From contig JANXEA010000027.1 in NCBI GenBank assembly GCA_025059045.1, positions 1 to 48,593 on the forward strand: a stretch of DNA of 48,593 nucleotides, read 5' to 3'. This stretch comes from Candidatus Bathyarchaeota archaeon (GTDB taxonomy: Archaea; Thermoproteota; Bathyarchaeia; Bathyarchaeales; DTEX01). Position 1 is the first letter of the stretch, and the number at the start of each line of letters is the position of its first letter. Below the pieces are notes generated by a model, which made no database searches, was not told the origin of the DNA, and worked only from the letters and a program-made list of their open reading frames with translations. Position numbers and translations under genes: made by a program. Shown piece by piece: positions 8,765-27,645 of this stretch.

Positions 8765-10049
8765 TTATTTCCCCTCCAACCGAAGACAGATCTCTAAGGA
8801 AATTTGGGTACGATTTATTAATACATTCGGCTCCATGCACAATAGTGGCTCCCTCAGCTCTTAGTCCAGCAACGATGCATGCCATGGCGATTCTATGATC
8901 GCCGTGAGAATTAACTTCTGCGCCACGAATTTTCTCATCTCCAAAAATGACGAATGAATCATCAACTAAACTCATCTTTACGCCCATCTTTGAAAGTTCA
9001 TCCATTAATGAGACTATTCTATTCGATTCCTTGTACCTTAGCCTAGTGACACCTCTAATCCTTGACTTCCCACGAATGAATGATGATAGGACAACAAGTG
9101 GTGGAACGAGGTCGGGATGGTCTTCGGCATTAATATCCAACGGTTTTAGCCTCTTCTCAGCACCTAAAATTCTCACATGATCGTCGCCGACCTCAATTTG
9201 TACACCTATTTCTTGAAGGATATCGACGATGACTCGGTCCCCCTGTAACGAGTCTTTCCTAAGATTTTCAACTTTGAGATCCGAGCCTGTGATAGCCGCT
9301 GCTACAAAAAGAAATGCTGCAGAAGAATAATCCCCTTCAATTTTATGGTTAAAAGGTATATATGTCTGAGGAGCATGAATCTCAAACTTCTCATATTTCC
9401 CGTCAGCGTCAACTTTAACTCCATGCTTCTTAAGAATGTCCAATGTCATACTGACATATGGCTTAGATTCTAACGGAGAAGAAATAATTATCTGGGTTTG
9501 ACCTTTGGCAAGGGGGGTTGCAAAGAGGAGACCCGACACGAATTGCGAGCTTATGTCACCCGGAAGTGATGTTGCTCCCCCTCTGATTCCTCCCCCAAAA
9601 ACAATTAAGGGTGGATAACCGTCGCCCCGAGCAGAATAGCAAGGAACGCCAAGCCGACTAAGAGCATCCAAAATTGGTTTCATTGGTCTCTTACGTAAAC
9701 TAGGTCCGCCTGTAAGTATTGAAATCCCGTCCGCCAAGGCGCAGACTGGGGTCAGAAAGCGAATAGTCGACGCCGATTCTCTACAATTTATGACATTTTC
9801 AGGCGTGTCGGGTTTAGCTCGACCAATGACGAGGAACCTGTTTTCATGATCATTTGCGATTCTGGCTCCCAACATTTTGCATGCTTCTATTGTGGCTAAA
9901 GTGTCCTCACAGATTAGTGGATCTTCAATCGTTGAGAGCCCATCCGAAAGTGATGCTGCTATAAAGGCTCTGTGCGTAAGAGATTTTGATGGCGGGGCTC
10001 GCAGTGCCCCCCGGAGGCATTCCGTCTTTTTGACAATAACATCAGCCAA
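8754..10049 (-). CDS. aroA: 3-phosphoshikimate 1-carboxyvinyltransferase (EPSP synthase)
   Basis: Joins phosphoenolpyruvate to shikimate-3-phosphate. 431 residues with both inside-out alpha/beta domains. Substrate-binding signatures visible are PPSKSLTHRAFIAASLS (N-terminal lysine/serine block), LTGGPSLRKRPMKPI, the IEGDYSSAAFLFVAAA block, and the RYKESNRI and NSHGDHRIAMACIVAG blocks near the C-terminus. The start is a TTG at 10049, six bases after the aroK stop. It sits fifth in the aro operon. Confidence 0.96.
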   Translation of the reverse strand: MADVIVKKTECLRGALRAPPSKSLTHRAFIAASLSDGLSTIEDPLICEDTLATIEACKMLGARIANDHENRFLVIGRAKPDTPENVINCRESASTIRFLTPVCALADGISILTGGPSLRKRPMKPILDALSRLGVPCYSARGDGYPPLIVFGGGIRGGATSLPGDISSQFVSGLLFATPLAKGQTQIIISSPLESKPYVSMTLDILKKHGVKVDADGKYEKFEIHAPQTYIPFNHKIEGDYSSAAFLFVAAAITGSDLKVENLRKDSLQGDRVIVDILQEIGVQIEVGDDHVRILGAEKRLKPLDINAEDHPDLVPPLVVLSSFIRGKSRIRGVTRLRYKESNRIVSLMDELSKMGVKMSLVDDSFVIFGDEKIRGAEVNSHGDHRIAMACIVAGLRAEGATIVHGAECINKSYPNFLRDLSSVGGEIIER

Positions 10050-26311: not shown

Positions 26312-26569
26312 CTACCATGAGAATTCTGCGAGGCCGATCATCCTCAAGGCATCCAATAGCCCCTCACAGTATGAGACGGAAGCCAAACTTACTTCAAACC
26401 TTTCACATTTATAGTAGTACTTTGCATCCTCAAGATATCTTCTAGCCTCTTCAAATACATTTCTTATCCTAGCCTCTTCTATAGGCTGAGGAACGTTAAC
26501 AAGTTTTATCTCTTTCAGGACTTTTTCGGTTTTTTCAATGTATTTTGAGGTCAAATCTTTAAGTCTCAT
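26312..26569 (-). CDS. DUF357 family protein
   Basis: 85-residue all-helical protein of the archaeal DUF357 family: KTEKVLKEIK at the N-terminus and ARRYLEDAKYYYKCERFEVSLASVSYCEGLLDALRM as the conserved HEPN-like helices. In many archaea it lies between dphB and ribL, as here, but its role is not known. The ATG overlaps the dphB stop in an ATGA junction, so the three genes are co-transcribed. Confidence 0.85.
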   Translation of the reverse strand: MRLKDLTSKYIEKTEKVLKEIKLVNVPQPIEEARIRNVFEEARRYLEDAKYYYKCERFEVSLASVSYCEGLLDALRMIGLAEFSW

Positions 26570-27372
26570 CCAATCCTCTCCTTAATGGATTCAGGTGCAT
26601 CTGCGAATCTCATTAAGGCCTCTGCCTCCATAAAATGGAGCTTATCCGCGATGAAGATTAGAGTGTATGGTGGTGGACCGAAGTTCATGGTTAGAAGTTC
26701 GCTGATCCTTCCCGCCTTCATGAGGGCATCCTTTGACCCAGCCCTAGCAATTACCACGGCAATGGCATCCATATTAATTATGCCCTTACGTTTTCTTTCT
26801 TCAACAGTCAAAAGCATCTTAAACGCTTCGTCTATGCTCAAGTACCTTTGCTTCTCCACGTCTATGTCGAGAAAGCATAGTGTGTGAAGGTTTCTAGCCT
26901 TATTTTCCGAGATCACCTCATATGGGGTCTCGGATATTATCCCTTGCTCACTGAATGGGATGGTGACGGTCCTGCCGAAGCGATAGTTTTGTAGGCCTGA
27001 AAGCCCGATAGCCGCTGAGATTATGGATACGCCGTGTATCACCCTTGTCTTTATTCCTCTTTTTTCAGCCTCAATCCTTAGCGCAACATGCGTTGTCGCA
27101 ATCAGCGGGTCCCCAGGAACCAGGAGAGCAACATTTGCTCTTCCTGCTTTTGAAAGTATGCATTCTCCGTTCTCATCTTCTAAAGTCTTTCTTGAAACCA
27201 CAGTGACCCTCTTGCCGATAATGCGTTCAAGATTCTTTAATGATATTGAGGGCATAACGCTAGTATAGAACTCTGCGAATACATGATCTGTTTTCCTCAA
27301 TTCTTCAACTGCACGGAGAGATAAGTCTAGCTCATCGGATAATCCTAAACCTATGAAGATGAGCTCGCCCAA
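26566..27372 (-). CDS. dphB: Diphthine synthase
   Basis: 268-residue SAM-dependent methyltransferase of the tetrapyrrole-methylase fold. It methylates the modified histidine of elongation factor 2 during diphthamide synthesis. Blocks are GELIFIGLGLSDELDLSLRA, ALLVPGDPLIATTHVALR (the GDP SAM-binding motif), VIHGVSIISAAIGLSGLQNYRFG and VVIARAGSKDALMKAG. The start is a TTG at 27372, which the MGELIFIGLG family N-terminus supports even though the GAGGG in front is almost touching it. First of three co-transcribed genes, divergent from the tRNA-Lys gene. Confidence 0.93.
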   Translation of the reverse strand: MGELIFIGLGLSDELDLSLRAVEELRKTDHVFAEFYTSVMPSISLKNLERIIGKRVTVVSRKTLEDENGECILSKAGRANVALLVPGDPLIATTHVALRIEAEKRGIKTRVIHGVSIISAAIGLSGLQNYRFGRTVTIPFSEQGIISETPYEVISENKARNLHTLCFLDIDVEKQRYLSIDEAFKMLLTVEERKRKGIINMDAIAVVIARAGSKDALMKAGRISELLTMNFGPPPYTLIFIADKLHFMEAEALMRFADAPESIKERIG

Positions 27373-27444
27373 CCCTCTGTCACACTCAGATAAGAAAAGG
27401 TTATTAGCAATATCTATAAGTTACCTATTCAGCGGTGGAAGTGC

Positions 27445-27602
27445 GGGCCCGTAGCTTAGCAAGGCAGAGCGGCGGTCCACCCCTAACCTGGGGATGGGTT
27501 GAAGCTCTTAAGCCTGACCCGATGTTAGGAGAAACCCGTAAAAATCTTGGGTAGCCCAGGATTTCGGGAAGGTCGAGGGTTCAACTCCCTCCGGGCCCGC
27601 CA
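27445..27602 (+). tRNA. tRNA-Lys(CUU) with three introns
   Basis: The 158-base gene folds to a perfect 77-base tRNA only if three segments are removed: 27476-27503 (28 bases, between positions 30 and 31), 27511-27533 (23 bases, position 37/38) and 27540-27569 (30 bases, near position 43/44; ends shiftable by one). The mature form has acceptor GGGCCCG/CGGGCCC, D stem GCTT/GAGC, anticodon stem GCGGG/CCCGT, loop CTCTTAA with anticodon CTT, variable AGGTC, T arm GAGGG-TTCAACT-CCCTC, discriminator G and an encoded CCA. Intron 2 is a hairpin (CCTGAC/GTTAGG) and intron 3 a 10-pair hairpin (27542-27551 with 27555-27564). A T-run follows the CCA. Exact cut sites are inferred from the mature fold. Confidence 0.9.
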
Positions 27603-27645
27603 CTTTTTGGACGCCGACCCCCCATGATATCATGGAGGCTGCTGA

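Follow-up and report, generated by a model that had tools for sequence, protein, structure and literature searches.

A tRNA-Lys(CUU) gene with three bulge-helix-bulge introns at a syntenic locus of Bathyarchaeota

Can a short stretch of archaeal DNA in which tRNA finders see nothing encode a functional tRNA, and if so, how might its transcript be processed? The locus in question lies on the plus strand at 27445–27602 of the window (the whole stretch of DNA analyzed, 48,593 nucleotides), which comes from a MAG of 1.42 Mb in 27 contigs. The uncut gene is detected in the window by neither ARAGORN nor Rfam, and the sole Rfam match in the window is a different tRNA. An initial annotation had proposed that excision of three small introns from this locus yields a 77-base tRNA with anticodon CTT and an encoded CCA. 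We found that the locus encodes a tRNA-Lys(CUU) with three introns inside it, and the parts of the gene and its flanks are as follows.

26566–27372, minus strand: dph5 (diphthine synthase), divergent neighbor (NCBIfam TIGR00522, 310.8 bits)
27394–27407, plus strand: promoter-like box AAAAGGTTATTA (BRE/TATA-like), 38–51 nt upstream of the tRNA; putative promoter
27445–27475, plus strand: exon 1, tRNA positions 1–30 (ARAGORN on the spliced sequence)
27476–27503, plus strand: intron 1, 28 nt, site 30/31 (strict hBHBh′ motif)
27504–27510, plus strand: exon 2, G31–A37, containing the CUU anticodon at 27507–27509
27511–27533, plus strand: intron 2, 23 nt, canonical site 37/38 (relaxed hBH motif)
27534–27540, plus strand: exon 3, positions 38–44 (anticodon-stem 3′ strand and A44)
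27541–27570, plus strand: intron 3, 30 nt, site 44/45 in the variable arm (relaxed HBh′ motif)
27571–27602, plus strand: exon 4, G45 to the encoded CCA (ARAGORN on the spliced sequence)
27604–27608, plus strand: T5 run directly after the gene; putative terminator, judged by its sequence only

Exon 1 comprises the acceptor 5′ strand, the D arm, and the first four anticodon-stem bases, and it is invariant or nearly so among orthologues; exon 4 comprises the remaining variable loop, the T arm, the acceptor 3′ strand, G73, and CCA. When the three segments were excised, ARAGORN called the product (GGGCCCGTAGCTTAGCAAGGCAGAGCGGCGGGCTCTTAACCCGTAGGTCGAGGGTTCAACTCCCTCCGGGCCCGCCA, 77 nt) as tRNA-Lys(ctt) with a full cloverleaf, a CTT anticodon, and an encoded CCA, the outcome expected when bulge-helix-bulge (BHB) introns are excised. 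Lys(CTT) was called solely when all three segments were removed. Six of the seven other excision combinations gave no tRNA call, and removal of introns 1 and 3 gave a spurious tRNA-Leu. A purpose-written, independent parser that enumerates BHB-supported excisions returned as its best parse the splicing first proposed, except that intron 3 was placed at 27541–27570, and the product was identical. We also shuffled the approximately 100 middle bases of the gene with dinucleotides kept and the acceptor, D, and T arms untouched (n = 400). Some parse was possible for 43 of the 400 shuffles, but the real score was reached by none, and none had a Lys anticodon. Together, ARAGORN and the shuffles confirm the proposed 77-base product, and we conclude that, by the available computational tests, the locus is a real and apparently functional tRNA-Lys(CUU) gene. 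Its four exons are contiguous within 158 bp, unlike the halves of a split tRNA, each of which has its own locus and promoter. Group I and group II self-splicing introns, which have a conserved catalytic core and span hundreds of bases, are excluded by the intron lengths of 23–30 nt.

Relatives of the gene were identified by exon 1, and most are named Candidatus Bathyarchaeota. Three introns at the same sites are present in 16 genomes: 14 of the window's family (the source genome included), G022 of family f3, and Bathyarchaeota BA2. Two introns (30/31 and 37/38) are found in B26-1, B26-2, and genus g4 of the window's family. Many relatives have a single intron at 30/31, B24-2 has one at 37/38 alone, and four orthologues have none. 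Every orthologue with two or three introns has the one at 30/31, as do most of those with a single intron, and the gene belongs with the multiple-intron tRNAs, in which two or three introns are conserved in relatives. The gene adjoins dph5 in nearly all of the three-intron loci where the neighborhood is visible and in most relatives, which indicates that this is one orthologous locus. A block, AAAA(A/G)GTTATTA, is conserved upstream of the orthologous genes, and the sequence surrounding it is not.

Among 257 genomes of the class, the intron 3 pattern was matched only in the window's family, in G022, and, apparently by chance, in G064 and G114; screening 398 genomes sampled across the phylum added nothing convincing. 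The spacers in G064 and G114, and in the only two matches from outside the class (G456 and G579), are unlike intron 3, and all four matches look like chance, as judged by the matched letters. Described by taxonomy labels, the distribution suggests that the 30/31 intron is widespread and the 44/45 intron restricted. The Lys(CUU) gene was not found in five genomes of the family (G001, G008, G009, G011, and G019), either through assembly loss or through divergence. Separately, a contig filed under Heimdallarchaeota AB_125 (MEHH01000131.1) carries, beside dph5, a tRNA-Lys(CUU) gene that matches its counterpart in a Bathyarchaeota MAG letter for letter, and this contig is likely misbinned.

In the BHB parse, all three sites have a 4-bp central helix (H; 4 of 4 pairs in each case) and two 3-nt bulges. 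Intron 1 has a central helix CGGC/GUUG, an outer helix (h) AGAG/CUCU, and an inner helix (h′) of CCA followed by CCCC/GGGG. Intron 2 has a central helix CUCU/GGAG and no conserved inner helix, and its outer helix is the anticodon stem as it stands after excision of intron 1. Intron 3 pairs CCCG (27535–27538) with CGGG (27565–27568) and has no outer helix, and its inner helix is 10 bp long (AAATCTTGGG/CCCAGGATTT). Relaxed forms that lack one flanking helix, as at introns 2 and 3, are known substrates of this type of endonuclease. The same three motif forms recur, with few exceptions, across the 16 three-intron genes. Summed over these genes, the inner-helix pairs number 84 for intron 1 (shuffle mean 8.7), 105 for intron 3 (shuffle mean 9.5), and 8 for intron 2 (shuffle mean 7.8), which indicates that introns 1 and 3 retain their inner helices despite changes in sequence and length and that intron 2 has none to retain. 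Introns 2 and 3 had each been credited with a hairpin of their own; that of intron 3 is the conserved 10-bp helix, but that of intron 2 is present here and not in the orthologues (mean z −0.6).

Neighboring motifs share exon bases. Intron 1 draws on CUCU (27505–27508) for its outer helix, and intron 2 draws on the same bases for its central helix; CCCG (27535–27538) likewise serves as both the central helix of intron 3 and the anticodon-stem strand needed for the outer helix of intron 2. Because of this sharing, introns 1 and 3 would be expected to be excised before the canonical intron 2. With a nearest-neighbor model at 37°C, the calculated cost of forming the BHB motif in the full window precursor is 0.2 kcal/mol for intron 3, 8.2 kcal/mol for intron 1, and 18.3 kcal/mol for intron 2. 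The cost for intron 2 is 9.0 kcal/mol after loss of intron 1 and 5.7 kcal/mol after loss of introns 1 and 3, and its motif is cheaper once both are gone in 16 of 16 orthologues; as the energy models are not fitted to BHB motifs, the splicing order is a prediction. In the minimum-energy fold, the stem of intron 1 is shifted in register, leaving a GG/AA internal loop, and the BHB register is not favored by the model. Ordered removal of the introns, imposed by shared exon bases rather than by pairing between CCTAAC and GTTAGG, is likely. The transcript would be cut at its three BHB motifs by a heterotetrameric (αβ)2 splicing endonuclease, introns 1 and 3 would be released before intron 2, and the exons would be joined by RtcB. 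That one intron may need to leave before the motif of another can form is also a premise of tRNAscan-SE 2.0 (PMC8450103). We entertain, tentatively and with more doubt than belief, the further possibility that the precursor is interlocked, the 37/38 intron being unrecognizable until those at 30/31 and 44/45 are gone; the added introns would then force an order, and the syntenic orthologues with zero, one, two, and three introns would record the gains.

Might the introns instead act as a regulatory switch, in which pairing of CCTAAC (intron 1) or CCTGAC (intron 2) with GTTAGG delays or orders splicing? The initial annotation had noted that both motifs complement GTTAGG and had suggested competition between the introns. 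The complementarity is strong in the window sequence: pairing between introns 1 and 2 is worth −20.6 kcal/mol, which is unusual in that only 2 of 1000 shuffles did as well, and the fold predicted at 70°C includes it. Across the 16 orthologues, however, true intron 1/intron 2 combinations pair no more strongly than combinations swapped between species (averages of −11.2 and −10.7, respectively), and several orthologues have almost no such pairing. The pairing is not a conserved feature; the swap test leads us to reject a conserved cross-pairing switch, and we regard the regulatory explanation as improbable.

It is very unlikely that the splice sites differ from those listed above, for example, that intron 3 lies at 27540–27569 as first read. 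Positions 27540 and 27570 are both A, so either boundary yields the same RNA product, but 27541–27570 gives a regular 4-bp central helix and two 3-nt bulges (UA^A and AA^G here) in all orthologues, and 27540–27569 does not. The asymmetrical bulge reported at the base of intron 3 was therefore an artifact of a one-base shift in the boundary. Two noncanonical sites had been claimed, and the claim is confirmed by their conservation in 15 other genomes, by the conserved helices of the introns, and by the matching splicing enzymes that the genome encodes: one site is 30/31, and the other is 44/45 rather than approximately 43/44.

A second, intact tRNA-Lys(CUU) gene elsewhere in the genome would argue against this interpretation. 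We looked for one with the spliced sequence and found none in the assembly, which supports the initial interpretation; the nearest matches are tRNA-Lys(UUU) genes, one each on contigs C26 and C21. The tRNA inventory was compiled from Rfam, a T-loop pattern, and BLAST searches, which genes with atypical T loops could escape, and because the MAG is 98% complete, a small chance is left that a second Lys(CUU) copy was missed. The tRNA-Lys(UUU) copy on contig C21 (position 3875) has its 3′ acceptor end broken off after CGGGT; it may be a truncated gene or what is left of an integration event. That the tRNA-Lys(CUU) locus is a decayed pseudogene with chance insertions, its job taken over by another tRNA, is scarcely credible: generic tRNA finders do overlook it, but its exons are intact, 15 other genomes have the same sites and conserved intron helices, and the assembly holds no other Lys(CUU) gene.

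Does the genome encode enzymes that could process such a transcript? We found two EndA paralogues and a gene for the ligase RtcB. The 185 aa EndA α is best matched by the catalytic subunits of A. pernix (3p1z) and S. tokodaii; it carries catalytic-type Tyr, His, and Lys motifs (DFVVY, DHAPY, and RLATTVKKR), and its K39 is aligned with K44 of the A. pernix Crenarchaea-specific loop. In A. pernix EndA, this loop lysine is needed for broad substrate specificity (PMC6379350). The β-like paralogue (187 aa) has KSTADY at the place of the catalytic His motif and lacks the catalytic His, as a structural β subunit would be expected to. The two proteins may form an (αβ)2 tetramer. At the gene level, the source genome thus has what relaxed BHB motifs require of a host, namely a candidate broad-specificity EndA, such as an (αβ)2 enzyme with the Crenarchaea-specific loop. 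We consider it almost certain that this tRNA-Lys(CUU) gene is functional, occurs in a single copy, and carries three BHB introns; an (αβ)2 endonuclease would cut its transcript, and RtcB would join the exons.

Other tRNA genes of the source genome also contain introns. On contig C11 (approximately 9264–9370), a tRNA-Arg(UCG) has introns of 18 nt at approximately 29/30 and 12 nt at 37/38; on contig C6 (approximately 20.4 kb), a tRNA-Asp(GUC) is interrupted near 47/48, immediately ahead of the T stem, by an intron of 29 nt; and on contig C7 (26350), a tRNA-Arg(CCG) with a 20-nt anticodon-stem intron is miscalled as tRNA-Leu by ARAGORN. A gene on contig C10 (63786–63920), called tRNA-Pyl(CUA) by ARAGORN, reads better by eye as tRNA-Arg(UCU) with two introns, one at 37/38 and the other within or ahead of the D arm. 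Inspected by eye, the Lys introns have no obvious likeness to the others listed, and we set aside intron transposition between tRNA genes of this genome.

The gene illustrates cleanly how introns accumulate step by step and is not a new kind of gene; its value lies in its interlocked motifs and in the syntenic zero-to-three-intron series. It adds Bathyarchaeota to the range of the three-intron tRNA class; in the literature covered by our search, which took in few subscription journals, we found no report of three-intron tRNA genes from this group. Syntenic orthologues with zero, one, two, and three introns should be useful for dating tRNA intron gain, and the series could test whether a relaxed-specificity EndA permits such gain. 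Because common tRNA finders miss the gene, the tRNA inventories of these MAGs look incomplete.

Every kind of site used by this gene has published precedent: 30/31, the canonical 37/38, and the variable arm. In Staphylothermus and Nanoarchaeum equitans, tRNA-Lys(CUU) is split, and its parts are joined at 30/31 (PMC3218864). The tRNA, the site, and the canonical BHB are the same as here, but those halves are separate genes spliced in trans, whereas the Bathyarchaeota gene has a short cis intron; the presence of a cis intron at this site in many genomes is relevant to the question of whether split tRNAs arise from intron-bearing ones. Variable-arm introns have been confirmed in both A. pernix tRNA-Lys genes, and that of tRNA-Lys(CUU) lacks the helix that would flank the central one between the exons (PMC4307357). 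It resembles intron 3 in tRNA type, in its variable-arm position, and in having no outer helix; the A. pernix genes have one intron rather than three, and the likeness in position is drawn at the level of the variable arm.

In A. pernix tRNA-Trp(CCA), experiment has confirmed an intron that lies 31 bases from the 5′ end (PMC4307357), a distance equal to the length of exon 1 in the gene described here. At four tRNA-Trp(CCA) loci of Thermoproteales and A. pernix, we found the same 31-nt exon 1 length and 30/31 site, and a fifth adds 37/38; these genes are of another isotype and have no intron 3. In all five loci (Thermoproteales and Desulfurococcaceae), exon 1 is nearly the same as that of the Bathyarchaeota tRNA-Lys(CUU).

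The closest parallel in intron number is in Pyrobaculum and other Thermoproteales, in which archaeal tRNAs have up to three introns at canonical and other sites (PMC4390854, PMC8450103), as the initial annotation had noted of multi-intron tRNAs in Thermoproteales and some other TACK archaea. Three-intron examples are tRNA-Glu(UUC) of P. calidifontis and tRNA-Pro(UGG) of P. islandicum (PMC4390854). Like these, the gene described here has three BHB introns at a mixture of canonical and noncanonical sites; unlike these, which are of other isotypes and from another archaeal class, its set of introns is common to 16 genomes at a syntenic locus.
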